64,000 nucleotides of DNA from Leucocoprinus leucothites (taxonomy: Eukaryota; Basidiomycota; Agaricomycetes; Agaricales; Agaricaceae). The DNA lies in the NCBI GenBank assembly GCA_013368445.1, contig JAACJO010000028.1:124001-188000 (forward strand). The letters run 5' to 3'. This document shows, piece by piece, positions 12,221-63,850 of the stretch; positions within the stretch are counted from its first letter, which is position 1; every line of letters begins with the position of its first letter. A program made the position numbers and the translations under genes. Under the pieces are notes generated by a model. That model did not search any database, was not told the DNA's origin, and worked only from the letters and a program-made list of their open reading frames with translations.

Positions 12221-12304
12221 CATCGCATCCTCCTTTCCCTCTAACCACCATCATCGATTTCTTTGAAGGTGTTTTACAATACTCTGACTACGAATTCTAT
12301 CACT

Positions 12305-15055: not shown

Positions 15056-15057
15056 AT

Positions 15058-18000: not shown

Positions 18001-19011
18001 CTCGATTCAGTATTTACCTCCTCTTCTCTAGACCGTAATTGTATTTCTGTTGTCACTGATGCTTCTGTTCCACTTGTAGGTTCCCTTCAGGCGGTTTCGG
18101 CGGCACATTTATATCGCGGCGGACGACAAGTGTCCCATGCAAAACAAGCAAGCGGTCGGGCCTCGTCCACAGACGCTGAACTCTACTCTATTCGCATAGG
18201 CATCGCTAAGGCTATATCCCTTCAATGCGACCACATCATCCTCATCACCGACTGTATCCCAGCAGCCAAGCTGGCAGTTGACCCATCCATTCATTCAAGC
18301 CAGTCGCAATCGATTCAAGTTTGTTGACTTCTATCCGATTGGCTCTCAGCTAAACCATCCCGATCCATTGACTTCTGGGACGTTCCTTCCAAATGGCGAT
18401 GGAAACCCCGCCTTAGAGTCCACAATGACGTCACCTCCACACGCATACACGCCCCTTCTCATATGGGTGCCACCCTTGACTTCCTTCGACGCAAAGCCAC
18501 TAACGACTGCCAGAAATCCTGGGAGACTACATTTTGGAAGAAGAAGTACCGCGGCAACGGTTTCCTTCTATCCAAGAAAAATCGCAAATTCCTCATCCCG
18601 ACCTACGTCAAAGGAGGCACGTGGCTTCCTTTAGCCAATGAGTCACCATCTCTATGCGCTCGTATGACACGAGCCATCCTAAATCATGCCCCTATCGGAG
18701 CTTATCGCGAGAGGTTTTTCCCCCTCGAACCAATATCATGTCGCTGTGGCCATCGCCTGGAAACACGACATCACATCTTGTGTTATTGCCCCCTATATCC
18801 CATCCGCACTCAATGGGTGCAATGCGCCTTTCCTCAATACGAATTCCTCGTCGAGTTCTTGAAAAAGAATCCGGCTGCTTTTGCTTTCACCAATCATGAC
18901 ACGCGTCCACCGCCGCATCAAGCCCCTGTGCCCGCCGAACCAAATGAAGGTGAACTATTTTCTTTCATCTCTTCTCTTCTCTTTTCCTTTGAGTCCGATC
19001 TCTGTGTATGA
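15058..19011 (+). pseudogene. LINE-d ORF2 endonuclease-RT-RNase H, two nonsense codons
   Basis: 1318 codons in one frame, the same length as the intact ORF2 of LINE-g. It begins MSGKNNHISS with an APE-type endonuclease (SQNVGRS, LQEPPWN, MGGDFNCRSPEWD, SDHAPLLMDL). RT follows (FDIAQFFPSL, GIGQGSALSPILS, SFVDDGLC), then RNase H (VTDASVP, DAELYSIRIG, ITDCIPAAK) and a terminal Cys/His motif (CRCGHRLETRHHILCYC). It is broken only by TGA at 16084-16086 (DW-R) and 18325-18327 (VC-R), both CGA to TGA relative to sister copies. All catalytic motifs I can see are kept. Start is at ATG 15058, two bases after the ORF1 stop. Confidence 0.92.
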
Positions 19012-19080
19012 CACCTCGTTCTATAGTCTCTCTCGAGTCTTTTCTATTTCACTGGATTAATCGTATATAGTCTTTGTCTT

Positions 19081-19099
19081 AAGCGGTCTTCGACCGCTT
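19081..19099 (+). other. 3' UTR stem-loop of LINE-d
   Basis: AAGCGGTC-TTC-GACCGCTT is a perfect 8-bp stem with a 3-nt loop, about 95 nt upstream of the poly(A). It is present in all LINE copies that keep this region; loops vary (TTC, TCC, TCT). It is a candidate RNA recognition structure. Confidence 0.7.
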
Positions 19100-19152
19100 C
19101 GTGTACCCCAGCTTGCTGTAGTGTACCGACCGTTTGTATTATTTAGTTGAAA

Positions 19153-19187
19153 GCGGACTGCGATCGAGCACCGCTATATAAATTCAT

Positions 19188-19221
<34 letters not shown>
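19153..19221 (+). other. Shared LINE/half-LINE 3' tail and poly(A)
   Basis: GCGGACTGCGATCGAGCACC, then GCTATATAAATTCATTGATTT, directly precedes poly(A). The half-LINEs carry GCGGACTGCTATCGCGCACC, then GCGTTATAAAT, and end in TGATTT. This is the clearest sequence common to both families outside the coding region. It is a plausible RT recognition signal. Confidence 0.75.
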
Positions 19222-22097: not shown

Positions 22098-24390
22098 TTT
22101 TTTATTTTATTTTATTTTTAAAATCAATGATTTATTATGCGGTGCCCGATCACAGTCCGTGCCTGCCAACATAGTACAGGACCTAAGTACCGCTACCTAA
22201 GCCAAACACTACAAAGACAGGAATATATATAGAGAGTCTTGTCCAAGTACAGTACATTACCCGACGACAAAGAAATGCAGCATAGTAACAAGATGAAACT
22301 ACAAGTCCAACTCGCAGACCTCTAACAGTAAGCTTACATGCATGTGTGGCCCCAGCAATGAAGTGACGGGGTTGGGGGATGCATTGAGGCAGGTACGCGA
22401 CCTACCCCCGGGGCTTCCTATTGTCCTCCTTGTGACGGCTAAGCCAATCACGGTCAAACCGGTGGCGCCAGAACGGGCACTTTCGATCATCAGCTGCATG
22501 GTCACCCTTGCAGTTGATACATGAGATGTGGGGACAGGGCTCCCCAGTGGGTGTGGGTAGGATAGGGGGGTTTGCCTTTGGACTCCCCTTACAACACGAT
22601 GATGTGGAGCGATGGTTCTCACTACGGTGAGGACCACCACACTGGGAACACCTGAGTGCACGGTTGTGGCAGGTGGGGGTAGAGTGGCCAAAGCGCCAGC
22701 AGCGCTGGCACTGGGGAACACCAGGGTGGGCACGGGCAGGCTTAATGACAGCCTGCATACCGTTAAAGTCGAGGTACTTGTTGAGGAGCTTCTTGGCGCT
22801 GGCTCCTGATTGAGAGTCCCATAGGTTGAACCAAATGGTGGCGGTGTCGGCCTTGGGGGAGTTGCGCATGATGCGCACAGATGAAACGTCAGCAAAAGTG
22901 TCCTTGAACAGAGACAATTGCATACGGTCAGTGATGTTGATAGGCGTGGTACGGACGCTGTTCATGTGGAAGGGGACGTCAAGGATCTTGAGATAAGACC
23001 TCGACCTGGGGCGGCACGTCTTCATCTCAAACGGGGCAGTGAAGACGGAGGGGATTACAGACTCGATAACAATGGTGTCAGAGTCTGTGGGTACAGCGGA
23101 GGTGTACAGCACGATAGTGCTGTATGCCTTGGTGATGTTCTCAATGCGCAAGGATGACTTGGCACGTGAGAGGGCGTCATTGAAGAGGCGCATGGCCTTG
23201 TGATGGAGATAAGTGATTTCGCTGGCATTGCCAGTGAAATCTAGTAAGAGTTGGCGGCGAGTAGGCCCAGCGGTGGTCATGTGTGGCTTCTTTGCAGAGC
23301 CAGCAGTGGCAGTAGCGGCCTGATGCATTGCAGCAATGTGATCAGGGTCAAGGGAGGGGTTTGCCTGTGCTAGCTTGATGAGCGACACAGGCGGCACCGA
23401 AGTGCCGGAACGGGCGGCTTCCGCAAACGAGTGCTGATGAGGCGCCAGAGCAGGAGTGGGGATGGGCGCCTTCACGGGCGCTTGAGGGGGCCACTAGCGC
23501 GCGCCTTAGAGGGCGCTTGCTTGGGCGGTACAGGAGGACGGGCCGGGGCGGCCGCAGTGCCTTGGGCGTTTGTTTGGGTGCCTCAGGGGAGCCCATGTTG
23601 ATGTCACGTGGTTCCGCTTTGTCAGCGGATCCATGGGTTGCCTCATGGGCAACGCGTGTGTCTTTAGGAGAGGCCCCGGGCTCGACGACGCAAGCGAAGC
23701 CTTGCATGAAGGAGCGAAAGGTGGTCCAGCCACAACCAGCCCACTCTTCGCCCATGGAGATGCGTGCACTACTGTGCTCGCTCATATCAAACTCGTATAC
23801 TGCACCAGCAAGGTAGCTGGCACAGGCTTTGGCAAAGTCCTCATCGAGGAGGGAATTGTCGGGGAGCTCACGCATGAAGCGCGTGAACTTCCTGAGGCCT
23901 TTGAAGGCCCGCTTGGCCGTGGCATTGTCTCCAGACACGGTCCCAGGGGAGGACGGCGCGACTGACGGCACAGCAGGGGGAGGAGGTGTGATGGGCACAA
24001 ATGTGCATGTGCCCACAGTGTAGGGTTTCAGTGGCGACGGAACGTCAGCCACTGGGGGGGTAGAAGGCGCCGGCAATGGAACATCAGCGGGCACCGAGGG
24101 AAAGGGTGAGGGCGGCTGAAAGTCAGCCCTCATGGAGGCAGCGGCAGCCTTAAAGTCCGCCATTGTGCGGAGTGGCTGGGTAGAGGTGGAGGGCCTGGGG
24201 GCCTCTGTGATGGTGTCGAGCTTGTCATCACTGGATGCAATGTCAGAGTCGAGGTCCATGTTCACGATTTCGCGAGCGACTGCTTTAGATTTACGCCTAC
24301 CCATGTTAGCTAGAGTAGAATCGGTGTATACTAGACGTCTAACTGCACACCAACTAAGAGATGGTGGTGGTAAGAGGTCAAGGAGGGATG
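22098..24390 (-). mobile_element. HL-7, full-length half-LINE (subfamily C)
   Basis: This minus-strand half-LINE runs from its 5' terminus at 24390 to an A-rich tail read as TTTTTTTATTTTATTTTATT at 22098. The tail is (TAAAA)-like rather than pure poly(A). Its 3' UTR keeps the family core (GGACTGTGATCGGGCACCGC, ATAATAAATCATTGATTTT). The right flank is HL-8 and the left flank is HL-6 on the other strand, with no matching TSD. It is the most divergent half-LINE subfamily here. Confidence 0.9.
22402..24304 (-). pseudogene. HL-7 ORF1-like gag protein, frameshifted
   Basis: ATG at 24304 begins MGRRKSKAVAREIVNMDLD, an N-terminus unlike subfamilies A and B. Then come Pro-rich ADVPLPAPSTPPVADVPSP and a helical segment (KRAFKGLRKFTRFMRELPD). 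At least two frameshifts lie between about 23490 and 23560, in the Ala/Pro-rich stretch. From about 23475 the frame is open to the stop near 22402. It includes TTAGPTRRQLLLDFTGNAS, WFNLWDSQSGASAKK and the knuckles (CQRCWRFGHSTPTC, CSQCGGPHRSENH, CINCKGDHAADDRKC). Confidence 0.85.
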
Positions 24391-26786: not shown

Positions 26787-26819
<33 letters not shown>

Positions 26820-29090
26820 TCAAGTGCGACCCCGGAGGGGTCGCTATTTATAACGCGGTGCGCGATAGCAGTCCGCGCCCGACTATCTACTATATGGAAC
26901 CGATACCGCTACCGACTACGCACAAGTAAATAACCGGGAATATATATAAGTCCTGTCTGAGACAATACACGAATCGACAGCAGAAGGGGGGCTAGGCATG
27001 TAATACAAAGAGGAAGACATATACCGATATCACTGCATCTGGTGGCAGGCCTTGTGGTTGGTGAGAGCCCATCCGGTGACCGGCGATGGATGGGGGACGA
27101 TGCGTTGGCACTAGGGAGCTCCCCCTAGGCCCGGGACCGACCGACAGAACCGGAATGGCTTTGCAACCAATCCCGATCAAACCGGTGGCGCCAGAACGCG
27201 CACTTGCGGTCAGTTGCAGCATGTTCCTTGCTGCAGTTGACGCACTTGATGTGGGGACAGGGATCCCTGGCGGGTGTGGGCTGGATGGGGGGGTTTGCCT
27301 TCGGCGACCCCTTACAGCAGGAGGAGGTGGTGCGGTGATTCTCGGACCGATGTGGCCCACCGCATTGTGAACACCTGAGCGCACGGTTGCGACAGGTGGT
27401 GGTAGTGTGGCCCCAACGCCAGCATCATTGACACTGGGGGGTCCCGGGGTGAGCGCGCGCGGCCTTGATCATAGACTGCACGCCGTCGAAGTTGAGGTAT
27501 TTGCCGACCAGGCGCTTAGCGTTAGCGCCTGACTGAGAATCCCAAAGGTCGACCCAGACGGTAGCGGTGTCGGCTTTGGTGGAGTTGCGCATGATGCACA
27601 CGGAGGAAATGTTAGCGAATGTCTCCTTGAAGGGAGACACGCGCATACGGTCACTGACGTGTTGGGGAGTGGTACGCACACCACTCGTGTAATAAGGGAC
27701 GTCCAAGATCTTGAGGTAAGATCTGGACCTGGGTCTTTTGGTCTTCAGCGCAAACAGAGCGGTGAAGGCGGAGGGGAGGGCGGACTCGATCACCGATGCC
27801 TTGGCATCGGTGGCGACGGAGTTGGTGTACAACGAGATGGTGTTGTACGCCTTGGCGATGTTCTCAACACAAAGAGAGCTCTTCGCGCAAGTGAGGGAGT
27901 CGTTGAGAAGGCGCATGGCCTTGTGATGGAGATAAGTGATATCACCGGCGTCGCCAGTGAAATCGAGGAAAAGTTGGTGCCGGGTAGGGCCCGACGTGGT
28001 CATGCACGGCTTCTTCGCAGAAGGCGCATCAGCGAGAGTGGCCTGATGCATCACAGCGACGCAATCGGGCTCAAGAGTGGGGTGGGACTGGGCAAGCTTG
28101 ATGAGCGCTGCCGCAGACGCCGGGGTATGAGCAGCCTCGGCGAACGACTTCTTAGCCGCCGAGGAAGGGATTGGCGCTCGCTTAGGAGCGGGGGGCGCTT
28201 GAGTGGGCGCTTTGCCACTAGCGCAGGCCTTTACAGGCGCCGGCTTGGGCGGTAGAGGGGGACGGGCCGGGGCGGGCCGACGATCCGGGGGCGGTAGAAT
28301 GGGCGCCTTGGGGGAGCCCATGTCGATGTCACATGGACCTGCTGACTCAGTGGATCCATGGGTCGCCTCGTGGACGACGCGCGTTGTTTTAGGGGAGGTC
28401 TCGGCCAAGAATCTCTGACCGAAGCCCCCAAGAAATCTGCGTACGTCTCCCAGCCCTGAGCGTTGAGAGAGTTCGAGGTGACCAGTGTGCTGCCCATGTG
28501 CAGCTCCTTGGCGAATGACATCGAGGCCTTGGCTAGACAAGTAACCATGCCCTGAGCGTTGTTGACCGGGATTTCTTCCGGGTGTTTGATGGTATCCAAC
28601 CACTTAAGGAAGGATATGAGTTTGTTGAGGGTGCGCCTCGGGGTGAGCTCCTCCTTCTTTTTTCCCTTGGAGGAGGACACTGACACGGGGGCCACAGGGG
28701 GAGGGGGTGTGATGGGCACGAAAGTGCGTGCACCAATGGTGTAGGGATGGAGTGGCGACAGGACGTCAGCCACTGGGGGAGCAGGCGATGGCGACGGGAC
28801 GTCAGCCATCGACTGGGAAGGGCCAGGTGACGAGACGTCAGCCTGGGAGGGACCGTAGAACCCTCGCACGTTGAGAGGGTTGTCGTAGGGGTCGAGATGT
28901 TCATCTTCGGACATCTCAGGTAAGTTGAGCTCGTTGTCTGATGTGTTGACGGACTCGGTGGAGCCCGGTGGTGGCCGGTTAGCCTTAGACTTTCGTTTAC
29001 CCATGTATAATGAGTAAGAAAACGATGAAAACTAGACGTCTAATCAAACACCAACTTTTGATGGTGGTGGTAAGAGGTCAAGGAGGGATG
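26787..29090 (-). mobile_element. HL-9, complete half-LINE (subfamily A)
   Basis: This is a full-length 2.3-kb minus-strand half-LINE. The 5' terminus is at 29090, poly(T) starts at 26787, the hairpin GACCCCGGAGGGGTC lies just inside, and the shared tail follows. The TSD TAGAAGTAGAAAGTT (15 bp) lies at 26772-26786 and 29091-29105, inside the Gy-M pol gene. Confidence 0.96.
27125..29004 (-). pseudogene. HL-9 ORF1-like gag protein, one frameshift and one stop
   Basis: ATG at 29004 (MGKRKSKANRPPPG), stop TAG at 27127-27125, about 626 codons. One base is lost in a run of C at about 28425-28430 (five where other copies have six), shifting the frame at FLGGFG. A TGA at 27427-27425 replaces the arginine just after PQCQ in the first knuckle. 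The rest of the architecture matches HL-4: basic N-terminus, Pro-rich middle, LINE-ORF1-like domain, knuckles. Confidence 0.88.
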
Positions 29091-43156: not shown

Positions 43157-43249
43157 CATCCCTCCTTGACCTCTTACCTCCTACCACCACCATCGAAAGT
43201 TGGTGTTTGATTAGACGTCTACTTTTCATCGTTTTCATACTCATAATAC

Positions 43250-45119
43250 ATGGGTAAACGAAAGTCTAAGGCTAACTGGCCGCCACCGCGCTCAACCGAG
43301 TCCGTTAATGCATCCGACGACGAGCTCAACATCCCCGAGATGTCCGAGGACGAACATCTCGACCCCTACGACAACCCTCTCAACGTGCGAGGGTTCTACG
43401 GTCCCCCCCGGGCAGACGTTTCGTCGCCTGGCCCCTCTCAGCCGATGGCAGACGTCCCATCGCCATCGCCTGTTGTCCCAGTGGCAGACGTCCCATCGCC
43501 ACTCCAGCCCTACACTGTTGGCGCATGAACTTTTGTGCCCATCACGCCCCCTCCCCCTGTGGCTCCCGTGTCAGTGTCCTCCTCCAAGGGAAAGAAGAAG
43601 GAGGTCACCCCGAGGAACGCCCTCAACAAACTCATCTCCTTCCTTAAGTGGTTGGACACCATCGAAGACCCGGCTGACATCCCGGTCAACGACGCGCAAG
43701 GCATGGTTACCTGTTTAGCCAAGGCCTCTTACGCATTCACCAAGGAGTTGCACATGGAGAGCACCCTTATCACCTCGAATTCCTTCAATGCCCATGGCTG
43801 GGAGACATTTGCGGATTTCTTGGGGGGCTTCGGTCAGAGATTCTCGGCCGAGACCTCCCCTAAAGCGACGTGCGTCGTCCTCGAGGCGACCCATGGATCT
43901 GCTGAGTCAGCGGGTCCACGTGACATCGACATGGGCTCCCCCAAGGCGCCCACTTTACTGCCCCCGGATCGTTGGCCCGCCCCGGCCCGTCCTCCCTTAC
44001 CGCCCAAGCCGGCGCCTGCAAAGGCCCGCGCTAGTGGCAAAGCGCCCACTCAAGCGCCCCCCACTCCTAAGCGAGCGCCCATCCCACCCTCAGCGGCTAA
44101 GAAGTTGTTTGCTGAGGTTGCACGCACCCCGGCGTCTGCGGCAGCGCTTATCAAGCTTGCCCAGTCCCATCCCACTCTCGAGCCTGATCGTGTCGCTGCG
44201 ATGCATCAGGCCGCCCTCGCTGATGCGCCTTCTGCAAAGAAGCCGCGCATGACCACGTCGGGCCCCACCCGGCGCCAACTCTTCCTCGATTTCACCAGCA
44301 ATGCCCGTGAGATCACCTACCTCCACCACAAGGCCATGCGCCTTCTGAACGAATCCCTCACTTGCGCAAAGTGCTCGCTTCGTGTTGAGAACATTGCCCT
44401 GGCGTACGACACTGTCTCGTTGTACACTAGCTCCGTCGCCACCGATGCTGAGGTATCGGTGATCGAGTCCGCTCTCCCCTCCGCCTTCAACGCTCCTTTC
44501 GAGCTGAAGACGAGGCGACCCAGGTCCAGATCTTACCTCAAGATCTTGGACGTTCCTTACTACCTGAGTGGTGCTCGCACCACTCCCAAAGACGTCACCG
44601 ACCGCATGCGGGTGTCTCCCTTCAGGGAGACATTCGCTAACGTTTCTTCCGTGCGCATCATGCGCAATTCCGCCAAGGCCGACACCGCTACCGTATGGGT
44701 CGACCTATGGGATTCTCAGTCCGGCGCTAACGCCAAGCGCCTTGTCAACAAATACCTCAACTTCGAGGGTGTGCAGTCTATGATCAAGGCCGCACCCCGG
44801 GACCCCCCAGTGTCAACGATGCTGGCGTTGGGGCCACACTACCACCACCTGTCGCAACCGCGCTCTCAGGTGTTCCCATTGCGGTGGACCACATCGGTCC
44901 GAGAATCACCGCTCCACATCCTCCTGCTGTAAGGGGTCGCCGAAGGCAAACCCCCCCATCCAGCCCACACCCGCCGGGGAACCCTGTCCCCACATCAAGT
45001 GCGTCAATTGCGGCAAAGAACATGCTGCTACTGACCGCAAATGCACGTTCTGGCGCCACCGGTTTGATCGGGATTGGCTGCAAAGTCATTCCGGTTCTGC
45101 TGGTCGGCCCCGGGCCTAG
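43250..45119 (+). pseudogene. HL-11 ORF1-like gag protein, stop and 8-bp deletion
   Basis: ATG 43250 (MGKRKSKANWPPPR), family stop at 45117-45119. TGA at 43526-43528 lies in GA(R)TFVPI, a CGN to TGA change. From 43529 to about 44792 the frame is open. An 8-bp loss at about 44793 (the RAHPGT region) then throws the zinc knuckles out of frame. Domain order is as in HL-4, subfamily A. Confidence 0.87.
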
Positions 45120-45163
45120 GGGGAGCTCCCTAGTGTCAACGCATCGTCCCCCGTCCACCGCTG

Positions 45164-45550: not shown

Positions 45551-45615
45551 GAAATGGCGGGAGATGCATAATTGAGCGACTACGAGAGCGCTTCGTTTAA
45601 GCGGCTATAAAAGCG

Positions 45616-51194: not shown

Positions 51195-51568
51195 TGTCGA
51201 AGCAGCAACGGGGAGCGTAGCGGTGAAGGTAGACGACGAGGTCAGTACTCACTTTACTAGGCAGTTAGTCTGTTATGGGAGTGTTATTGAGGTAGTGGTT
51301 GCGACTGAGAAGATACAATTGACTGTAGAATAACGAAGAAAATACAAGGTATTTATACTAAAGAGTTCGAATATTTCTACTATTAAAGAGGGTATTACAC
51401 ACTCGTTTCGAGGTGGTAAAGGGTACAGGTAAAACGTATAGTGAAACATGTATAGTCCGCACGAACTATCGGTGCGTGAACATAGTGGTATCTAATAATA
51501 GAACGCATATGTCATAATTGAGAGTGAACACTTGTATAGCAGCATATAAACGCGCACGTGATTCAACA
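51195..51568 (-). repeat. Copia 5' LTR
   Basis: 374 bp, the promoter-side LTR of the minus-strand element. Right TSD CGCTG at 51569-51573. A TATAAATA on the minus strand lies at 51357-51350, about 210 nt into the LTR. Confidence 0.95.
51350..51357 (-). promoter_or_regulatory. TATA-like box in copia 5' LTR
   Basis: TATAAATA on the minus strand, midway in the LTR, in a plausible position for the U3 promoter. Motif evidence only. Confidence 0.45.
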
Positions 51569-51810
51569 CGCTGGCCGCCGGATGGGCCCTCACCAACCAC
51601 AAGGCCTGCCACCAGATGCAGTGATATTGGTATATGTTTTCCTCTTTTCTTTGTATTACATGCCTAGCCCCCTTCTGCTGTCGACTCCGTATTGTTTCGG
51701 ACAGGACTCGTATATATTCCCGGTTGTTTACGTGTGCGTAGTCAGTAGCGGTACTGGTTCCATGTAGTAGATAGTCGGGCGCGGACTGCTATCACGCACC
51801 GCGTTATAAA

Positions 51811-51827
51811 TGACCCCTCCGGGGTCA
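51811..51827 (+). other. Half-LINE 3' terminal hairpin (HL-11)
   Basis: TGACCCC-TCC-GGGGTCA is a perfect 7-bp stem with a 3-nt loop ending 7 nt before the poly(A). HL-13 has the same stem with loop TTT; HL-4, HL-9, HL-10 and HL-12 keep at least the ACCCC/GGGGT core. Confidence 0.7.
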
Positions 51828-51857
51828 CCTGATTAAAAAAAAAAAAAAAAAAAAAAA

Positions 51858-52608
51858 GGAGCTCACCCCAAGGCGCGCCCTCAACAACCTCATATCCTTC
51901 CTTAAATGGTTGGACACCATCGAGCACCCTAGCGAGATCCCAGTCGAGGACGCACAAGGCATGGTTACTTGCTTAGCCAAGGCCTCTGTCACGTTCGCTG
52001 ATACCAAAGAGCTGCGCATGGCTGGCACTTCAATCACCTCCAACGCTCTCAATGGTGAAGGTTGGGAGACGTTTGGTGACTTCTTGGGGGGCTTCGGTCA
52101 GAGATTCTTGGCCGAGACCTCCCCTAAAGTGACACGTGTCGTCCACGAGGCGACCCATGGATCCGCTGAGTCAGCGGGTCCACGTGACATTGATATGGGT
52201 TCCCCCAAGGTGCCCACCCTGCCCCCCCTACCGCCCAAGCCGGCACCTGCAAAGGCCCGCGCTAGTGGCAAAGCGCCAACTCAAGTGCCCCCCGCTCCTA
52301 AGCGAGCGCCCATCCCACCCTCAGCGGCTAAGAAGTCGTTTGCCGAGGTTGCACGCACCCTGGCGTCTGCGGCAGCGCTCATCAAGCTTGCCCAGTCCCA
52401 CCCCACCCTCGAGCCCGATCGCGTCACTGCGATGCATCAGGCTGCCCTCGCCAATGCGCCTTCTGCCAAGAAGCCGCGCATGACCACGTCAGGCCCCACC
52501 CAGCGCCAACTCTTCCTCGATTTCACCAGCAATGGCGGTGACATCACTTACCTCCACCACAAGGCCATGCGCCTTCTTAATGACTCCCTCACTTGTGCGA
52601 AGAGCTCT
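51858..52608 (+). pseudogene. HL-12 ORF1-like protein, first segment
   Basis: Open frame ELTPRRALNNLISFLKWLDTIEH through IDMGSPKVPTLPPLPPKPAP (a small in-frame deletion removes the PPDRRPAPARP stretch) to TTSGPTQRQLFLDFTS and LTCAKSS. LINE-g cuts it, with TSD TGTGCGAAGAGCTCT at 52594-52608 and 59581-59595. There is no start codon because of 5' truncation. Confidence 0.86.
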
Positions 52609-52812
52609 TTTTTTTTTTTTTTTTTTTTTTAAATCAATGTATTTATATAGCGGTGCTCGATCGCAGTCCGCTTTCAACTAAATATTACAAACAGATGGTA
52701 CACTACAGCAAGCTGGGGTACACAAAGCGGTCGAAGACCGCTTAAAACAAGGACTATATACGATTAGACCAGTGAAATAGAAAAGAATCGAGAGAAACTA
52801 TAGAACGAGGTG

Positions 52813-55800
52813 TCATACACAGAGATCGGACTCAAGAGAGAAGAGAAGAGAAGAGATGAAAGAATATAGTTCACCTTCATTTGGTTCGGCGGGCACAGGG
52901 GCTTGAAGCGGCGGTGGACGCGTGTCATGATTGGTGAAAGCGAAAGCGGTTGGGTTCTTTTTCAAGAACTCGACGAGGAAATCGTATTGTGGGAAGGCAC
53001 ATTGCACCCATTGAGTGCGGATGGGGTATAGGGGACAATAGCACAAAATATGATGTCTTGTTTCTAAGCGATAGCCACAGCGACAGGATGTTGGTTCGAG
53101 GGGGAAGAATCTCTCGCGATAAGCTCCAATTGGAGCGTGGTTGAGGATGGCCCGAGTTATACGAGCGCAAAGTTGTGGTGACTCATTTGCTAATGGAAGC
53201 CATGTGCCTCCCTTGACATAGGTCGGAATGAGGAACTTGCGATTTTTCTTTGAGAGAAGGAACCCGTTGCCACGGTACTTCTTCTTCCAGAATATAGACT
53301 CCCAGGATTTCTGGCAATCGTTGGTGACTTTGCGTCGTAGGAAGTCTAGGGTGGCACCTGTGTGAGATGGAGCGTGTATACGCGTGGAGGTGACGTCATT
53401 GTGGACTTTAAGGTGGGGCTTCCAACGCCATTTGGAAGGGATATCCCAAAAGTCGATGGATCGAGATGGTTTGGTTTTTAGCCAATCGGAGAGAAGCCGG
53501 CAGACTTGAATCGACTGCGACTGACTTGAATGGATGGAGGGATCGACTGCCAACTTGGCTGCTGGAAGACAGTCGGTGATGAGGATGATATGGTCGCATT
53601 GAAGGGAGATGGCCTTGGCAATGCCGATACGAATGGAGTAGAGTTCAGCGTCCGTGGACGAGGCCCGACCGCTTGCTTGTTTTGCATGAGACACTTGTCG
53701 TCCGCCGCGATATAAATGTGCCGCCGAAACCGCCTGAAGGGAACCTACAAGAGGAACAGAGGCATCAGTAACAACTGAAATACAATTACGATCTAGAGAG
53801 GAGGAAGTAAATACTGAATCGAGAGATGAAACATGTTTGTACATTTCGTGCTTGTCCGAACGATTACAAGGATGAAAATGGATGGAATCAGGATAGATGT
53901 CCATGAGACGAGAACCCGGCTTGGATACAGGATCAAAAGGAGAAAAAGAATCAGAAATATGAGAGAGAGAATTATCTACATCAATAATAGGGCCTTTAAC
54001 TTTAGCTTTTTTGGCCGGAGTAAGAAGGCGAAGTGATTGGGGATGAGGGTTAGAGTTAAAAGAGAAACGGTCAGATAAAAGAGTACATAACGCATGGTTA
54101 GAGGGTAAAGTAGAAACTCGATATGATGAACGAATAGCTAATTTACGCAAATGAAGGTGAATAGGGATGAGACCGGCAATACTTTCAGCACCACCAGATG
54201 GAGACGTTCGAAAGGCGCCAGTAATCCAGATAGCCGCACGCCTTTGCATGGATGAGAGTGATTTGAGAAGCGCCTTATTACGAGCGCCTTCAAAGTACCA
54301 AAGACGAAAGCCATACGTTGCCACTGGGACGACGCATGACCTGTATAAAAGCCGTTTTTGAAGGGGAAGGAGTCCACGATTGGAGTTACCTAGCATACCC
54401 ATAGCTTTCACAGTGGATAATGCTTTGGTAGAGTAATATCGAACGTGTTCTTGGAATGAAAGTCGTCGGTCAAAGTAAAAACCCAGATAACGCCAGAAGC
54501 GCTTGGGGTGAAGGATGGGACCGCCGACTTCAGATAGGTCCAGAGGAGGGTTTTTGTCATTGTGACGTCGAGAGAAATGAAAGACTTCAGATTTGTCATG
54601 TTCGATGACTAGTCCAAAATCGGTGCAGATGGAGTTAATGATGGAATAGGCTGTTTTAAGGGAAGATATTGTGTCAGTATAATTCTTCGCTTGGGATATA
54701 CAAAGCCCATCATCAACAAAGGATAAGAGGGAGGAAGAAACAGACTGTAATCGAGCACGTTGTTCGAACATATACATGAAAGGCGCCAGGTAAAGCGCTG
54801 ATAGAATAGGTGAAAGAGCCGATCCTTGCCCTACACCAACATCCGCGTCATGGGCGTCAGAAAGGAAGGTATTCCACATATATTGAGTTGATCGTCCTGT
54901 CAGGTAATGAGAGAAGAAGTTTACGAGCTCTGGGGCGAACCCTTGGCGTCGCAAGATGTCAGTAAGGATTTCATGGTTAAGAGAAGGGAAGAATTGGGCT
55001 ATGTCAAAAGCGCAAACGCTCGTGATCATACCTTTGGCCCATCCAGCCCGAATGATGTGAGAAAGGAAAACACCCGCGTCCTCAGTAGATCGCTGTATAA
55101 CTCCTCCCATTTGATTAGGATGAAGAACATTAAGAGATACCGCTTCGAATTGCATGCGTCGTGCAATCATTTTCTCGATGAGTTTGCCTAAAGTGTTAAG
55201 TAGAACAATGGGACGAAACGATTTAGGAGTATCATAGGCCGGTTTATTCGGCTTGGGAATGATGATGGAAACTGAGTCTTTGAAGTGACTCGGCCAATGA
55301 GAGAAACGTACGCACGCATTAGCGATCAGAATGATGTTTTTCAAGCAATCGTCATGAGCAACGATAGACTTTAAGTGTTTCCATGATACGTGATCAGGTC
55401 CCGGCGCTGAGGAGTTAGCGCAAGAACGTAGGGATTCAGAAAGTTCAAGGGCGGAGAAGTTTGCCCAAGATCGAGGAGGGAGAGATTTCATTTCATTTAG
55501 AATTTGAGGACTTACCAGTCGTCCCGACGCCGAGTTGTATGATGAGTGGAGCGCATTCCACAAGTCCGGAAGGTCATTGCAAGGGCGTCCTTGATATCGA
55601 ATGCCCTCAATGGCAGGGAGTTTTCGTTGTTTGACCCACTCCATAAGATCCCAAGGTCGTTTGTTAGTTGAAGCGATTTCGTGAATACGCTCATCAAAGA
55701 AAGAGCGCTTGGCGGCACGTGTGGCCGATCTAAACGCTCGCCAGTCTTTTTGATCTTTTGATTTTCGATATGCAAGTAAAGTCTCAGAACAGAGAGGAGT

Positions 55801-56766
55801 CCACCATTCTTTCGACCGGTTAGTGATCCATACAGTTTTAGAGTTCGAATTCCAAGAATCAGATATAATACTAGAGATGGAATGGGAAATGTTGTCCAGG
55901 CACGAAAATGAATGAATGTTTGAACAATTTAAAGCTGCAAGACGCTCTGAGACCTGAGAAATAAAGGCGGCCTCTTCATCGCTATCTTTCGGGAGTACAC
56001 GCTTTTTATAATTAATATAATCTGGGCGAATTGGAAGATCCATAAGCAAAGGTGCGTGATCCGAGGGTAGTCTCGAATTTGCATCAATGATATGGGGAGT
56101 GGAACTATTTGCACAAAAGATAAGATCAATAACCGTATCGTCATGATTGACGATGGCCGAAAAATGAGTTGGGGAAGAGATGGTCGGTATAGACCTAGAA
56201 AGATTGAAGCATTCCACTAACTCCGTTAGAGTTATGGCGGATTGAGGGACATGGGAAACTAAGGGATCCCATTCTGGAGAACGACAATTGAAATCGCCTC
56301 CCATGTAAATTATATTAGGGATATCAATGAAGTTTGTAGAAAGAAAATTTATCGCCGATGACGACGAATCAGAGTATACGTTAAGAAGATGGATATAATT
56401 ACCCTTGTTAAATAAACCTAGGATTTGAATGTCGCGATGGTTTATCCACTCCTGTCGAAGAATGGGTCTCATACGAGATAATCGTCTGTGAACGTAAGTT
56501 AAAGTACGCGGACGGGGATCATTAGACTTAGTAGGGCGAGCCATACATAGCCATTCTGGGTGGATGGGAGCACCAATGACGTCATCCCCTTCAGGGTTAG
56601 TCGTGGAGGGTGCTTTGCGAATGTGATTCCAAGGAGGTTCCTGTAGGAAAATAATATCAAAGTCCAGTTTCCTGGATTCAAGAATAGTATCAACTAGGGC
56701 GTATGAGCGTCCCACGTTCTGCGAATAGATACGAACAGACGATATATGATTATTCTTACCATACAT
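52813..56766 (-). CDS. LINE-g ORF2 endonuclease-RT-RNase H, 1317 aa, intact
   Basis: Endonuclease at residues 1-245 (SQNVGRS near 15, LQEPPWN at 41-47, MGGDFNCRSPEWD with D158 and N160, S235-D236-H237). RT at roughly 490-780 (FDIAQFFPSL with D588, GQGSALSPILSALYL near 647, FVDD at 683-686). RNase H at roughly 995-1140 (D1001 in VVTDASVP, E1041 in DAELYSI, D1065 in ITDCLPAAK, then HAPSHTG). Terminal Cys/His motif 1228-1244. The order EN-RT-RNase H is that of Tad1/I-type LINEs. Start ATG 56766, two bases after the ORF1 stop, suggests reinitiation. Confidence 0.96.
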   Translation of the reverse strand: MYGKNNHISSVRIYSQNVGRSYALVDTILESRKLDFDIIFLQEPPWNHIRKAPSTTNPEGDDVIGAPIHPEWLCMARPTKSNDPRPRTLTYVHRRLSRMRPILRQEWINHRDIQILGLFNKGNYIHLLNVYSDSSSSAINFLSTNFIDIPNIIYMGGDFNCRSPEWDPLVSHVPQSAITLTELVECFNLSRSIPTISSPTHFSAIVNHDDTVIDLIFCANSSTPHIIDANSRLPSDHAPLLMDLPIRPDYINYKKRVLPKDSDEEAAFISQVSERLAALNCSNIHSFSCLDNISHSISSIISDSWNSNSKTVWITNRSKEWWTPLCSETLLAYRKSKDQKDWRAFRSATRAAKRSFFDERIHEIASTNKRPWDLMEWVKQRKLPAIEGIRYQGRPCNDLPDLWNALHSSYNSASGRLVSPQILNEMKSLPPRSWANFSALELSESLRSCANSSAPGPDHVSWKHLKSIVAHDDCLKNIILIANACVRFSHWPSHFKDSVSIIIPKPNKPAYDTPKSFRPIVLLNTLGKLIEKMIARRMQFEAVSLNVLHPNQMGGVIQRSTEDAGVFLSHIIRAGWAKGMITSVCAFDIAQFFPSLNHEILTDILRRQGFAPELVNFFSHYLTGRSTQYMWNTFLSDAHDADVGVGQGSALSPILSALYLAPFMYMFEQRARLQSVSSSLLSFVDDGLCISQAKNYTDTISSLKTAYSIINSICTDFGLVIEHDKSEVFHFSRRHNDKNPPLDLSEVGGPILHPKRFWRYLGFYFDRRLSFQEHVRYYSTKALSTVKAMGMLGNSNRGLLPLQKRLLYRSCVVPVATYGFRLWYFEGARNKALLKSLSSMQRRAAIWITGAFRTSPSGGAESIAGLIPIHLHLRKLAIRSSYRVSTLPSNHALCTLLSDRFSFNSNPHPQSLRLLTPAKKAKVKGPIIDVDNSLSHISDSFSPFDPVSKPGSRLMDIYPDSIHFHPCNRSDKHEMYKHVSSLDSVFTSSSLDRNCISVVTDASVPLVGSLQAVSAAHLYRGGRQVSHAKQASGRASSTDAELYSIRIGIAKAISLQCDHIILITDCLPAAKLAVDPSIHSSQSQSIQVCRLLSDWLKTKPSRSIDFWDIPSKWRWKPHLKVHNDVTSTRIHAPSHTGATLDFLRRKVTNDCQKSWESIFWKKKYRGNGFLLSKKNRKFLIPTYVKGGTWLPLANESPQLCARITRAILNHAPIGAYRERFFPLEPTSCRCGYRLETRHHILCYCPLYPIRTQWVQCAFPQYDFLVEFLKKNPTAFAFTNHDTRPPPLQAPVPAEPNEGELYSFISSLLFSLESDLCV

Positions 56767-56768
56767 AT

Positions 56769-59501
56769 TTAGACAGCAACTCCGCCACCGGAGCGATTGG
56801 AATTAGCGCGAACAGCACGTGCAGTGCGTGATTCGGCTGCTTTGTTAGAGTGCCAGGTCCGGTCGAACCTGTTTCTCCAAAATGGACATTTGTTGTCATT
56901 AGCGTGATGATCGCCTTTGCAATTAAGGCACTTGAAGTTCTCAAGATGAGGACATGGGATACCGTCAGGGGTGGCGTCACGAGGGGGGGAAGATTTGGGA
57001 TTAGCCTTACAACACCAGGCCATGGATCGGTGATTCTCGACGCGATGAGGGCCACCACAGATTTGGCATCGTGCACCAAGGGCGCGACACGCATGAGTGG
57101 GGTGACCCCACCGCCAGCAGTTCCTACACTGGGCAACACCTGGGTGCATACTGGTTGCACGAATAGTGCCGATATGGCGCCCGAAGTTGATAGTACGGTT
57201 AACCAACGTCTTGGCTTTGGTACCATTCTGAGAGTCCCAAATGTCAAACCACATGACGGCTGTGTCTGACTTCGGGGATGCTTTCATAACGCGAGGGCGG
57301 GCAGCAAGGATTACATTTTCGAACAAAGACGATTGGCCAAGAGCTTGTTCGACAAAAGCGGGGGAAAGAGGATTGGATGAGTTAGCTACCCAGTAAGGGA
57401 CGCCAACGATTTTCAGAAAAGATTTGGATTGTGGGAGGCGAGGCTCGATAGGAATAGCGTCTCCCAGTTGCCAGGCTTTTTTAAGCCATGATTTGATGGT
57501 ATCGAGGTCACTCGAAGAGGCGACACTCGAGGTGGCAATAGAAATGCCGTTATACGATTCGCGGACTGATTCAACGCGAAGATTGGATTGGGCAGCAATG
57601 AGGCCGCGGTTACAAAACTCGGATGCCTTGTTGAAGTCCTTAATACGATCGGCAATGATGTTGCCTTCGAAGGGGATGAGGACTTGTCGACGTGTGGGCC
57701 CGTGAGTCGTCATTTTTGGTTTAGCGCGTATAGCGCTTGTGGTCGTTGTTGGTTCAGGCGCTTTAGATTGGGCGCTACCAAAACCAGCCTTGTACATAGC
57801 AAGGACTTTATCATAAGGGAGATCAGGGAAGGCGAGTATCATTTCTCGCATTTTAACCCCGTCAATATTGGATGGATTGAGAGTTGACGAAGTAGGCTGG
57901 ACACCCCGTCGGGCGGCATCAGCGAACGATGTCTTCTTGTTGAAATGTTCCGTAAGGGGTTTGATGGATGCCTTACGGTCAAATTGGGGAATGGGGGTTG
58001 GCATGTCAGAGGCGCTCTGATTAGGTTTGGATGGCTGAGCCTGGCCATCAGCAGAAGGGCGCCCGACTGAACGCTCAAAGTTACCATTCCCGTGATGGGA
58101 AAGCGGGGGAGGGGCCCGGGATACTCGGACAGAACTAACATTAGGTTTAGAAGACTTTACGTCATTCTTTGCCTTTTGTGAGTTTAACACAGACGATACG
58201 TCATGTGTTTTACCAGAAGACGATACGTCATTCTGGGGGATAGGAAGGATGCCCTCAGCGGGAGGGGCTTGGTCAATGTTCATGGCGTCGTGGTCAATGC
58301 AATCTGTAAGATTAGATTGCCCGACGACAATGCCGGGGGGGAATAGGGGGGTAGTGGTTGGTTTAGGAGGTTTGCTTACCTTCTTTCCCTTACCCTTGCC
58401 TTGAGGAGGGGGGGAAGAATCAGTCATAGGAATGATAGGTTGAGGGCTAAGATATTGCCTCAACGCTTCGGTGATGGTCAAACCGCTTTCGCCATTGATG
58501 GGCAAGCGGTCCCAGCCTGAATTAAACATAGAAGTCAATAGGCAATAAATGGGTTCCCCCATTTGGGGAAACCTTGGGTCATTCTCACCAGGACGCACAT
58601 TGAGAGCGACCCGATGTTTAAAGAAATTAGTAATATATTTAAGCGCCTCAAGCGCTTTGAAGGCAGCATCACTGACAACTAAAGTCTCTTCAGTGGCTGT
58701 GTTGGTTGGATCCTTGAGATCCGGGAGTTGTGGCTGTACAGGCCTAGACTCCTGTGGCTGTGTCATGACATCACCAGTGACATCATGTGTGACGTCATGT
58801 GTGACGTCATTCAAACTCGATGAACCGGCAAAGAAAGTAGCCGGAGTGCCGGATGGCACAGGTTCTGCTGACTCAGCGGATCCATGGATCGCATGAGGCA
58901 GCCTTAAGGTGGGTGGGGGTCCAAAGAACCGAGTGGTTGGTTCCCCATTGTTTATTATCCCATCCTCTTGGTCGCTCCACGCGTCCCCGCGAGAGTTCAA
59001 ATTCAGAGGATCAGGAGTCTTTAACTCACCTACAAATCCCTCGCCATAAGGACGGAAAGGAATAGGTAGCTTGAAGCCATCATAGGCACCCATTGACGCC
59101 GTTCTTGAGATGGCTTTAGGTGTGATGTCCAACCGACGGGCCGCATCGCGAGCGCGAGCTTGCTTAGCGCGAGACAACAGAGGGGGAGTTCTAGGGGAAG
59201 AAGGCATAGCTGCCTGTAAGAGCGCACCAGGCGCAGTAATGGGAGAAGAGGGGGTGGAGGATTCAGACGAGTCAGATTCACTCTCACCGCTTTCTTCGTT
59301 GTCAGAACCATTCCTGGATGGAGCAGTGGATTTAACGTCGTCATAGACAGAGTGTCTAGTCGATTTGATAGAGAGCGCGGGCGAGTTAGAGCGATCGCGT
59401 TTGTAGTTTGAGACACGTGTTTCAGTGTCAACGATGTTGATGGGGTCCGAAGACGGTGGAGGGGTGCCCTTAAGGTCATCCCAATGCGATGGTGCAGTCA
59501 T
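56769..59501 (-). CDS. LINE-g ORF1 gag-like zinc-knuckle protein, about 910 aa
   Basis: ATG at 59501 (MTAPSHWDDLKGTPPP). A reading from an upstream TTG adds 14 residues and is less likely. Acidic/Ser N-terminal region (EESGESESDSSESSTPSSP), low-complexity middle, helical conserved patches (SQKAKNDVKSS, LTEHFNKKTSFADAARRG), then the ORF1 core (KMTTHGPTRRQVLIPF, WFDIWDSQNGTKAK). Three Cys/His knuckles lie at about 792-874 and the tail is basic. Homologous along its C-terminal half to half-LINE proteins. Presumed RNA-binding partner of ORF2. Confidence 0.94.
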   Translation of the reverse strand: MTAPSHWDDLKGTPPPSSDPINIVDTETRVSNYKRDRSNSPALSIKSTRHSVYDDVKSTAPSRNGSDNEESGESESDSSESSTPSSPITAPGALLQAAMPSSPRTPPLLSRAKQARARDAARRLDITPKAISRTASMGAYDGFKLPIPFRPYGEGFVGELKTPDPLNLNSRGDAWSDQEDGIINNGEPTTRFFGPPPTLRLPHAIHGSAESAEPVPSGTPATFFAGSSSLNDVTHDVTHDVTGDVMTQPQESRPVQPQLPDLKDPTNTATEETLVVSDAAFKALEALKYITNFFKHRVALNVRPGENDPRFPQMGEPIYCLLTSMFNSGWDRLPINGESGLTITEALRQYLSPQPIIPMTDSSPPPQGKGKGKKVSKPPKPTTTPLFPPGIVVGQSNLTDCIDHDAMNIDQAPPAEGILPIPQNDVSSSGKTHDVSSVLNSQKAKNDVKSSKPNVSSVRVSRAPPPLSHHGNGNFERSVGRPSADGQAQPSKPNQSASDMPTPIPQFDRKASIKPLTEHFNKKTSFADAARRGVQPTSSTLNPSNIDGVKMREMILAFPDLPYDKVLAMYKAGFGSAQSKAPEPTTTTSAIRAKPKMTTHGPTRRQVLIPFEGNIIADRIKDFNKASEFCNRGLIAAQSNLRVESVRESYNGISIATSSVASSSDLDTIKSWLKKAWQLGDAIPIEPRLPQSKSFLKIVGVPYWVANSSNPLSPAFVEQALGQSSLFENVILAARPRVMKASPKSDTAVMWFDIWDSQNGTKAKTLVNRTINFGRHIGTIRATSMHPGVAQCRNCWRWGHPTHACRALGARCQICGGPHRVENHRSMAWCCKANPKSSPPRDATPDGIPCPHLENFKCLNCKGDHHANDNKCPFWRNRFDRTWHSNKAAESRTARAVRANSNRSGGGVAV

Positions 59502-59580
59502 AGTAGTATAATTCGTAGTCAGTGTGTATGTAGACACCGTCAAAGAAATCGATGATGGTGGTTAGAGGGAAAGGAGGATG

Positions 59581-61036: not shown

Positions 61037-61540
61037 CACCCATGACAAGGAACTGCTTGCAATTTTTGAAGCATTCCGAATCTGGCGCCATTATCTTGAA
61101 GGTGCTGCGCTACCCATAGGAACCTTGAGTATTTCTCTACCACAAAGATACTAATGCGCAGACAAGCCAGATGGTCCAAGTTCTTATCGCAGTTCAACCT
61201 TGTTATTCAATTTAGACCTGGTAAGCTTGGAACAAAACCAGATGCCCTAACTAGACATTGGGACGTCTACCCAAAAGGGGGGAATAATGGCTACGCCACG
61301 GTTAATCCTCACAATTTCCGACCTGTCTTTACTAACGAACAACTTTCTACTTCTATTCATGCTTTGTATCTTTATATGCCTGCACTGTGCACTGGTCTTA
61401 TTATGGACATTTCGCAACTTCGCACAGACATTCTTTCCGCTATTTCCACTGACAATTCTGTTTCCGATCATTTCGCTCATCCAGAGGGTCGCTGGTCCAA
61501 AGACTCCGAGGGTTTCTTATTACTTGATGGTAGAATCTAC
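61037..61540 (+). pseudogene. Gy-P pol, RNase H end and integrase start
   Basis: Gy-P resumes after the tandem insertion: [19 protein letters not shown], then [17 protein letters not shown] and [26 protein letters not shown] 19-bp deletion at 61117/61118, bounded by the microhomology CAT, removes the VTDH RNase H motif and shifts the frame. HL-13 interrupts the sequence; TSD GATGGTAGAATCTAC at 61526-61540 and 63836-63850. Confidence 0.88.
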
Positions 61541-63835
61541 CATCCCTCCTTGTCCTCTTACCACCACCATCGAAAGTTGGTGTTTGTTCTGAGGCATCCT
61601 TACATCGTCTATCTACAGTAATATGGGTAGGCGCAAGTCTAAAGCTACTGCCAATCAGTTTGCCGCGTTCAAATCCGAGTCCTCCGCCGTCTCTGGTGAC
61701 GAGCTCAACATTGCCGAGATGGCCAAAGATGACCACCTCGACCCCTACGACAACCCACTCAATGTGCGTGGGTTCTACGGTCCCTCCCAGGCTGACGTCT
61801 CGTCGCCTGGCCCCTCCCAGTCAATGGCTGACGTCCCGTCGCCATCGCCTGCTCCTCCAGTGGCTGACGTCCCGTCGCCACTCCAGCCTTACACTGTGGG
61901 TGCACGCACTTTCGTGCCCATCACGCCCCCTCCCCCTGTGGCCCCCGTGTCAGTGTCCTCCTCCAAGGGAAAGAAGAAGGAGCTCACCCCGAGGCGCGCC
62001 CTCAACAACCTCATATCCTTCCTTAAGTGGTTGGATACTATCGAACACCCAGAAGAAATCCCGGTCGACGACGCACAGGGCATGGTCACTTGTCTGGCCA
62101 AGGCCTCGTATGCATTCGCTAAGGAGCTGCGCATGAGCGGCACCCTCATCACCTCGAATTCTCTCAACGCCAACGGCTGGGAGACATTCGTGGATTTCTT
62201 GGGGGGCTTCGGTCAGAGATTCTCGGCTGGGACCTCCCCTAAAGCGACGCGCGTCGCCCACGAGGCGACCCATGGATCCGCTGAGTCAGCGGGTCCACGT
62301 GACATCGACATGGGCTCTCCCAAGGCGCCCATTCTACTGCCCCCGGATCGTCGGCCCGCCCCGGCCCGTCCCCCCTTACTGCCCAAGCCGGCACCTGCAA
62401 AGGCCCGCGCTAGTGGCAAAGCGCCCACTCTAGCGCCCCCCGCTCCTAAGCGAGCGCCCATCCCACCCTCGGCAACTAAGAAGTCGTTCGCCGAGGTTGC
62501 ACGCACCCCAGCCTCTGCGGCAGTGCTTATCAAGCTCGCCCAGTCCCACCCCACCCTCGAGCCCGATCGCGTCGCTGCGATGCATCAGGCCGCCCTCGCT
62601 GATGTGCCTTCTGCAAAGAAGCCGCGCATGACCACGTCAGGCCCCACCCGGCGTCAACTCTTCCTTGATTTCACTGGCGAAGCCGGTGACATCACCTAGC
62701 TCCACCACAAGGCCATGCGCCTTCTCAACGACTCCCTCACCTGCGCAAAGAGCTCTCTTCGTGTTGAGAACATCGCCAAAGCGTACGACACCATTTTGTT
62801 GTACACTAGCTCCGTCGCCACTGATGCCGAGGCATTGGTGATCGAGTCCGCCCTCCCTTCCGCCTTCACCGCCCCATTCGAGTTGAAGACGAAACGCCCC
62901 ATGTCCAGATCTTACCTCAAGATCTTGGATGTTCCTTACTACACGAGTGGTGTGCGTACCACTCCCCAACACGTCATCGACCGTATGCGGGTGTCCCCCT
63001 TCAAGGAGACATTCGCAAACGTCTCCTCCGTGCGCGTCATGCGCAATTCCGCCAAGGCCGACACCGCTACCATTTGGGTCGACCTCTGGGATTCTCAGTC
63101 CGGCGCTAACGCCAAGCGCCTGGTCGGCAAGTACCTCAACTTCGACGGCGTGCAGTCCATGATCAGGGCCGCGCGTGCTCACCCCGGGACCCCCCAGTGT
63201 CAACGATGCTGGCGTTGGGGCCACACTACCACCACCTGTCGCAATCATGCGCTCAGGTGTTCACAATGCGGTGGGCCACATCGGTCCGAGAATCACCGCA
63301 CCACCTCCTCCTGCTGTAAGGGGTCACCGAAGGCCAACCCCCCCATCCAGCCCACACCCGCCGGGGATCCCTGTCCCCACATCAAGTGCGTCAACTGCGG
63401 CAAGGAACATGCTGCAACTGACCGCAAGTGCGCGTTCTGGCGCCACCGATTTGATCGGGATTGGCTGCAAAGTCATTCTGGTCCTGCCGGTCGGTCCCGG
63501 GCCTAGGGGGAGCTCCCTAGTGTCAACGCATTGTCCCCCGCCCATCGTCAGTCGCCGGGTGGGCTCTCACCTACCACAAGGCCTGCCATCTGATGCAGTG
63601 ATAACGGTTTATGTTTCATCTCTTTGTATTTTACATGCCCAGCCCCCTTCTGTTGTCGATTCGAGTATTGTTTCGGACAGGACTTATTATCTATTCCTGG
63701 TTGTTTACTTGTGCGTAGTCGGTAGCGGTATCGGTTCCATGTAGTAGATAGTCGGGCGCGGACTGCTATCGCGCACCGCGTTATAAATGACCCCTTTGGG
63801 GTCACCTGATTTAAAAAAAAAAAAAAAAAAAAAAA
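61541..63835 (+). mobile_element. HL-13, complete half-LINE (type element)
   Basis: 2295 bp from CATCCCTCCTTGTCCTCT (61541) to poly(A) 63813-63835, with a perfect 15-bp TSD (61526-61540, 63836-63850) in Gy-P. Content: 82-nt 5' UTR, one ORF of 628 codons, 306 nt of 3' UTR with hairpin TGACCCC-TTT-GGGGTCA at 63788-63804 and the shared tail (63758-63812). No endonuclease or RT. It proves that an ORF1-only unit transposes as such. Confidence 0.97.
61623..63506 (+). pseudogene. HL-13 ORF1-like gag protein, one nonsense codon
   Basis: ATG 61623 (MGRRKSKATANQFAAFKSESS), stop TAG 63504-63506. The N-terminus resembles subfamily C (MGRRKSKA), but from DELNIAEMAKDDHLDPYDNP onward it is subfamily A, a mosaic. 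Then ADVPSP repeats, KGKKKELTPRRALNNLISF, TTSGPTRRQLFLDFTGEAG and knuckles at about 526-606. The only defect is TAG at 62697-62699 (TAC to TAG in IT(Y)LHHKAM), not a CpG change. A readthrough or correction error cannot be excluded. Confidence 0.9.
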
Positions 63836-63850
63836 GATGGTAGAATCTAC

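Follow-up and report, generated by a model that had tools for sequence, protein, structure and literature searches.

An ORF1-only retrotransposon family under protein selection, HL, probably relies for its copying on the ORF2p that the LINE resident beside it supplies in trans, to judge from the sequences of both. It was characterized in a window of 64,000 nt (positions 124001-188000 of contig C28, in an assembly of 47 Mb and 110 contigs), within 264 kb of C28 examined and in the genome at large. We infer trans-mobilisation by the LINE on an indirect basis, namely the ends and the target signature that both share. ORF1-only elements are a known kind (HAL1, HeT-A and perhaps HaTad); unusual in HL are an ORF1 lineage that is foreign to the helper as against termini that are shared with it, the swapping of modules within ORF1, and the confinement, together with the helper, to centromere-like islands. 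A Gag-only element that is selected in several subfamilies without Pol offers a natural test of the role of ORF1p in cis preference, and the sharing of end motifs despite different ORF1 lineages points to RNA features that the reverse transcriptase (RT) may need.

Structure and insertion sites of HL units

HL-13 is a non-LTR unit of 2,295 bp with the following parts.

61541..63835, + strand: HL-13, complete ORF1-only element with 5' motif, ORF1, 3' UTR, poly(A) and 15-bp target site duplication (TSD)
61526..61540, + strand: upstream TSD copy (GATGGTAGAATCTAC), perfect over 15 bp, its empty site found elsewhere
63836..63850, + strand: downstream TSD copy (GATGGTAGAATCTAC)
61541..61573, + strand: 5' terminal motif, common to the full LINE, CATCC(C)TCCTTnnCCTCTnACCACCAnCATC
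61623..63506, + strand: ORF1 frame (MGRRKSK...RSRA) with one in-frame TAG at 62697-62699
62628..63183, + strand: RRM-like stretch of ORF1, in tandem, with approximate bounds
63198..63431, + strand: zinc-knuckle region with three Cys/His clusters, from sequence and alignment
63757..63780, + strand: 3' stem-loop (CGCGG-AC-TGC-loop-GCA-CCGCG), common to the LINE, with A-U as the outer pair in the latter
63789..63803, + strand: additional hairpin GACCCC..GGGGTC, carried by many HL copies and absent from the 7 LINE tails examined
63813..63835, + strand: poly(A) tail, 23 nt

The element starts with the letters CATCCCTCCTTG, and its 3' UTR is ~330 nt long. Both an RRM fold and Cys/His knuckles are found in HL ORF1; no Pfam family scored above the cut-off for it, no match was found in a PDB sequence search, and an AlphaFold model of the full ORF1 from a 6-row alignment had a mean pLDDT of 38. 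A plasmid search gave no match, and scans of viral contigs found no relative. Other HL copies of the window to which we refer are listed below.

3947..6245, + strand: HL-4, complete, exact 15-bp TSD GGAAGAGACATTTGC, sitting inside a subfamily B HL
26791..29090, - strand: HL-9, complete, exact 15-bp TSD AACTTTCTACTTCTA
22098..24390, - strand: subfamily C copy of complete length, its TSD partners at another HL-C copy
6247..7724, - strand: 5' part of a subfamily B copy, split by HL-4 from its 3' part at 3305-3943
43157..45160, + strand: subfamily A copy, split by a long insert (45161-51575) from its 3' end at 51576-51857

The preliminary description of this DNA had named HL-13, HL-4 and HL-9 as complete units of ~2.3 kb with poly(A) and TSDs and with neither endonuclease nor RT, which we confirmed: all three TSDs are exact over 15 bp, and endonuclease and RT are absent from the three units. 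Each was also said to hold one zinc-knuckle ORF; the frame is indeed there, but it is interrupted in all three, by the in-frame TAG in HL-13, a frameshift in HL-4, and both a frameshift and a stop in HL-9. Intact ORF1s, with neither stop nor frameshift, encode 614-635 aa and occur in 14 of 37 aligned copies. Pre-insertion (empty) sites for the three units are present elsewhere in the 264-kb stretch of C28, that of HL-13 matching the 200-bp joined flank at 96.5% identity over 200/200 bases, ungapped. Poly(A), TSDs and empty sites, with no LTRs, mark HL as non-LTR. In the window there are 8 occurrences of the 5' motif and 16 of the 3' motif, the latter with LINE ends included, against a mean of 0.00 in 100 shuffles each. 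Thirteen HL copies had been counted in the window, a number that our hand count lowers to ~12 distinct elements, some of them split by later insertions.

In total, 36 near-complete units were extracted, 19 from C28 and 17 from other contigs; among 20 loci outside C28, L041 was unused (5' end with 6 mismatches). The units measure 2,254-2,333 bp, no ORF2 was found in any of them, and by eye and tree they form about five groups: A (with the L040/L042 branch), B, C, D (e.g. L029) and E (L032, L037). For the codon alignment (n = 37), L034 was left out as a duplicate of L033, and L038 and L039, whose 3' ends are unclear, were added. TSDs of at least 12 bp flank 14 of 16 distinct HL units outside C28 and 7 of 8 LINE copies on C28, and TSDs of at least 10 bp flank 13 of 19 HL copies on C28; in HL as in the LINE, 15 bp is the most frequent TSD length.

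Two HL-C copies, at window 22098-24390 and C28:94301-96595 (L010), lie in opposite orientation without TSDs of their own, and the 5' flank of each resembles the 3' flank of the other with ~1 mismatch (by eye). Such apparently swapped TSDs could reflect an inversion of ~54 kb by crossover between the two HL, a possible event as read from the flanks. The split HL-A copy encloses one uninterrupted reading frame (1,772 aa, window 45616-50934, - strand) whose protein looks Copia-like by eye.

The ORF1 lineages of HL and the resident LINE differ

Two full-length LINE copies lie in the window.

52608..59580, - strand: full LINE, the proposed helper, ORF1 at 56769-59501 and ORF2 at 52813-56766, both open
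12226..19216, + strand: second full-length LINE, ORF2 broken by stops

ORF2 of the candidate helper has endonuclease and RT matches and a sub-threshold match to RNase H. The copy at 52608..59580 is 99.67% identical to a full copy at C28:104057-111029, with both ORFs open in both, and two such near-identical open copies point to recent LINE activity, as far as sequence can tell.

HL copies could have arisen from the neighbouring LINE by an internal deletion that removed ORF2, and have multiplied as ordinary dead ends, i.e. a strict HAL1-type origin. The C-terminus of ORF1 is indeed homologous (44% identity between an HL-C copy and the LINE), as had been claimed, the terminal motifs are shared, and HL and LINE occupy the same islands. 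In the ORF1 tree, which has long branches, the LINE instead groups with P0007, P0008 and P0011 (support 100/99), and HL lies beside P0002-P0006, P0009, P0010 and P0012; with the same caution on long branches, an AU test rejects HL and LINE ORF1 as one group (p = 0.0008). Thus, HL is not a simple deletion of the neighbouring LINE, and we rejected that candidate: the proteins are homologous, but they belong to separate ORF1 lineages. ORF1 of unbroken LINE copies is 910-925 aa long against the 614-635 aa of HL, and selection on ORF1 persists across HL subfamilies (see below). Together these data make an origin by deletion improbable.

Mammalian HAL1 (half-L1), which had been named as the known parallel, is described as a derivative of L1 in the part of the source cited (PMC5753468). 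The parallel holds for the ORF1-only build and fails for an ORF1 derived from the co-resident LINE; it is imperfect because HL ORF1 belongs to another lineage than that of its neighbour, with which it shares short end motifs.

HL and LINE share terminal motifs and a target signature

HL and LINE begin with related 30-nt motifs, and both end in a stem-loop, then a TAAAT and TGATT stretch, and then poly(A). The HL tails of L045 and L047 match a LINE tail from TATAAAT through poly(A). Hence the 5' and 3' ends that had been described as HL's own are well defined, but they are not wholly its own, since both terminal motifs are common to the full LINE.

Across 12 chosen tails, 96.7% of the cells in the 3' stem are paired, and one pair changes from C-G in HL to A-U in the LINE. 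Covariation in this stem depends on that single pair, because 6 of 10 pairs never vary; its score was reached by 1 of 500 shuffles, and the number of compensatory pairs was reached by 321 of 500 and so is not above shuffles. Folding z scores were -3.1 for HL-13, -2.9 for the LINE, -1.4 for the L045 type and -0.93 for the C type, the last folding little better than shuffles.

Insertion sites were compared at tails of at least 10 A, which comprised 22 of 25 HL, 5 of 8 HL-C and 17 of 21 LINE motif matches. The first non-A base after the tail was G in 16/22 HL, 4/5 HL-C and 14/17 LINE cases, against a background of 39%; with four interrupted tails excluded the counts were 14/20, 4/4 and 13/16. This G-after-tail signature is common to HL and LINE, and it is weak and short.

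No ORF2 follows HL ORF1

On C28, ORF2 follows 0 of 46 HL ORF1 ends (43 of which reach the ORF end) versus 15 of 16 LINE ORF1 ends. In this analysis 22 of the 46 HL ends reached the ORF end without the strict 3' motif within 460 bp, and UTR similarity was used instead; 9 of the 52 ends in the UTR-similarity list were LINE ORF1 ends (56-59% identity, inside LINE copies), and their removal left 43. Of these, 41 continue into the HL 3' UTR and the other two hit LINE sequence immediately, as expected of nested insertions.

For the genome-wide search, 150 of 859 candidate HL ORF1 ends and 150 of 305 candidate ORF2 starts were scored. No same-strand scored ORF2 start lies within 1 kb of any of the 150 scored HL ends; within 1.5 kb there are two, at 1.08 and 1.30 kb, and the one on C28 belongs to a neighbouring LINE. 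With 150 of 859 HL and 150 of 305 ORF2 candidates scored, a rare ORF2-bearing HL could have escaped. An ORF2-bearing relative, the finding that would have spoken against an ORF1-only family, was thus absent from the 264-kb stretch of C28 and from the scored genome matches.

These counts bear on a further explanation, that HL is the shortened form of a second ORF2-bearing LINE with an HL-type ORF1 and 3' UTR, a TAHRE-like master that is extant or recently lost. HL ORF1 sits in the tree with the ORF1s of other sources named above, three of which (P0006, P0009 and P0010) are on contigs of 5-8 kb with room for an ORF2, and the genome searches were not exhaustive; no such master appeared among the 150 scored HL ends genome-wide or the 43 on C28, and all 36 near-complete units, from about five groups, are without ORF2. 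We therefore consider a master of this kind unlikely, and favour an ORF1-only family served by the resident LINE.

In one public gene model, P0001, which is named endonuclease/exonuclease, a piece of LINE endonuclease is fused to an HL ORF1 truncated at its 5' end. It was considered as an HL master and rejected: the endonuclease piece precedes the HL piece, the reverse of the ORF1-ORF2 order, and because of this order P0001 is best read as a gene model, probably an annotation error, that spans a nested insertion.

Selection on HL ORF1

Pairwise dN/dS (NG86) was 0.18-0.42 for all 91 pairs of the 14 intact ORFs, with dS up to ~1.2. Because NG86 ignores transition bias and the intact copies are a chosen set, we added tree-based counts of all 37 copies, broken ones included, in which synonymous changes, sorted into 12 classes with regard to CpG context, supplied the expectation. 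For the C-terminal half of ORF1 (codons 301-658), terminal branches gave a non-CpG omega of 0.14 and internal branches one of 0.23. For CpG transitions on terminal branches omega was 0.78, nearer to neutral, and such transitions made up 548 of 1,074 terminal-branch changes (37 copies, codons 301-658). This share suggests methylation decay after insertion, and so a cytosine methylation of the islands that is read here from substitutions. The N-terminal part of ORF1 is less constrained, with N/S ratios of 1.13 on terminal and 1.48 on internal branches versus 2.41 expected.

Among control frames of HL ORF1, 4 of 5 gave non-CpG omega of 1.55-3.15; antisense frame 2 gave low values (0.26/0.38), a probable effect of third codon positions that fall on the same bases in this frame and in the sense frame. 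For the LINE (8 copies), terminal/internal omega was 0.17/0.18 in ORF1 and 0.13/0.10 in ORF2. These data show that the C-terminal half of HL ORF1 is under frame-specific purifying selection, much like the resident LINE. The proposal that long ORFs kept across diverged subfamilies reflect selection on the protein is borne out by both measures, the pairwise dN/dS and the C-terminal non-CpG omega. With dN/dS well below 1 and no ORF2-bearing member found, a true ORF1-only lineage is supported. Moreover, each HL lineage retains its own ORF1, and hence ORF1p probably acts mainly on its own RNA.

Over the whole ORF1, N/S was 1.18 on internal and 0.91 on terminal branches, i.e. internal branches are not more constrained, and therefore much of the terminal-branch divergence arose in replicating lineages. 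This pattern does not fit a simple master-copy picture.

Constraint of this strength, together with the narrow interval in which HL is confined on each large contig, could also mean that HL ORF1 serves the host, e.g. at centromeres, and that the selection reflects a host function. There is precedent for a fungus co-opting pieces of LINE ORF1: in barley powdery mildew, according to the part of the source cited (PMC4641428), a portion of a LINE ORF1 gave rise to the large EKA gene family. From what that part relates, EKA genes are co-opted effectors from truncated LINE copies, whereas HL are complete ORF1-only elements with their own ends and TSDs. In HL the constraint is seen in many copies and not at a single locus, and the family numbers hundreds of scattered copies that are decaying and bear TSDs and poly(A) tails, all of which argues for selection at the level of the element; a host function is thus highly improbable, and we retain selection on HL as a mobile element.

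The copies B_L038 and B_L039 have the same three stop positions (373, 561, 639). They were considered as a broken HL multiplied in trans, which was rejected: because target site and flanks are identical, they are one insertion that was duplicated. Stops at positions 290, 302, 373, 455 and 558 also recur in non-duplicate copies; recurrent CpG decay is likely, since the stop is TGA at all five, against CGA or a different CGN codon in other copies. Positions 373 and 455 show conflicting patterns in one B subclade, where some copying of broken HL may have occurred.

Exchange of an N-terminal module

A stretch of ~85 residues in the N-terminal part (ORF1 alignment columns 128-215) has been exchanged between HL lineages. 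In DNA identity, L042 and L040 agree at 95% in the C-terminal part versus 58% in the module, and HL B and A at ~90% versus 41%; HL B and L036 agree at 74% in the C-terminal part and at 80% in the module. Within one module type the stretch is constrained (pN/pS 0.18-0.41). It is our speculation that the module decides which ORF1p molecules co-assemble.

A model of HL copying and its known parallels

In our model, an HL transcript would begin at CATCCCTCC and would be translated into an ORF1p of the form RRM-RRM-zinc-knuckle, which would coat its own RNA (cis preference). The resulting particle would take up LINE ORF2p via the common 3' end, in which the stem-loop is the predicted recognition site, and target-primed reverse transcription would then insert HL at an A/G-rich site. 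HL would thus be a satellite with a Gag of its own and a borrowed Pol. As HL ORF1 is of another lineage than that of its helper, the family probably arose when a gag that was foreign or orphaned became combined with ends usable by the LINE.

In SINE-LINE pairs the non-autonomous partner bears the 3' tail of its helper. SINEs are non-coding, whereas HL encodes an ORF1p of its own that is under selection. Another likeness is found at Drosophila telomeres, where HeT-A, the most abundant element of the set with TART and TAHRE, has gag without Pol and likely obtains Pol from a partner, according to the passages cited (PMC5537684). As far as those passages go, the two systems are alike in that a gag-only element is abundant, its Pol would come from a partner, and apparently one chromosomal domain is occupied. 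They differ in that HeT-A forms head-to-tail arrays that extend chromosome ends, whereas HL occupies internal sites with TSDs and is nested in both orientations, and in that the HeT-A set includes TAHRE, whereas no TAHRE-like HL with Pol appeared among the 150 scored of 859 HL candidates. Among the literature matches listed, judged by the openings of their abstracts, no description of a complete ORF1-only LINE of fungi was found.

HL and LINE occupy centromere-like islands

On the 264-kb stretch of C28, HL covers 34.9% and full LINE 49.1%, together ~84%, and in the window they cover 33.5% and 39.8%. Searches of the genome gave 318 matches to the HL 5' motif (at most 2 mismatches in 30), 123 to the LINE 5' motif (at most 3 in 36) and 240 to the common 3' motif (at most 1 mismatch), with 0 matches to each reversed control. 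On 22 of 23 contigs, the 150 HL and 150 ORF2 scored matches fall in common stretches. On the seven contigs of >1.2 Mb for which a length was available, all scored matches fall within 3.5-8.2% of the contig, and adding the motif matches listed (the first 100 per motif) extends the spans to at most 9.3% (C10). The HL/LINE interval is internal on C1, C2, C5, C7 and C10, lies near a contig end on C6 and C13, and fills 29-60% of the small contigs C20, C28, C32 and C33.

We read these islands as putative centromeres by analogy with Agaricus bisporus, of the same family, where the cited passages report one repeat cluster of 110-280 kb per chromosome that is read as the centromere (PMC7473861); the 110 sequences of the present assembly are contigs and not chromosomes. 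If the islands are centromeres, the C28 stretch, which consists to ~84% of HL and LINE, bears on how mushroom centromeres are built. In the same passages, four HaTad non-LTR families are found only in, and in all, the A. bisporus clusters (PMC7473861). By analogy with HAL1, the name may stand for half-Tad, and HaTad may be the same thing as HL in a relative, a comparison by cluster location and name only, as these passages give neither a definition of HaTad nor an account of its ORFs. Nor do they treat selection, shared ends or ORF1 phylogeny, all three of which are analysed here for HL. In protein searches, no match named Agaricus was seen among the matches listed, most of which are nameless.

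A bolder proposal is that HL and LINE together make up a centromere retrotransposon in two parts, comparable at the centromere to HeT-A/TART, in which the abundant Gag of HL, a foreign gag lineage with LINE ends, would carry both RNAs to centromeric chromatin, the LINE would supply Pol, and the swappable ~85-residue modules would keep rival Gags apart. We put this forward tentatively and think it rather doubtful in this full form; copying of HL in trans by the LINE is the narrower reading that we prefer.

Between ~120 and 148 kb of C6, HL and LINE matches are mirrored on opposite strands about C6:134,316, and the scores of L033 and L034 are identical; therefore this region is a large palindrome or an assembly hairpin. 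ORF2 matches with identical scores are also paired in inverted order within C40 and within C38, and are common to C24 and C86, which hints at further duplications or redundant contigs.
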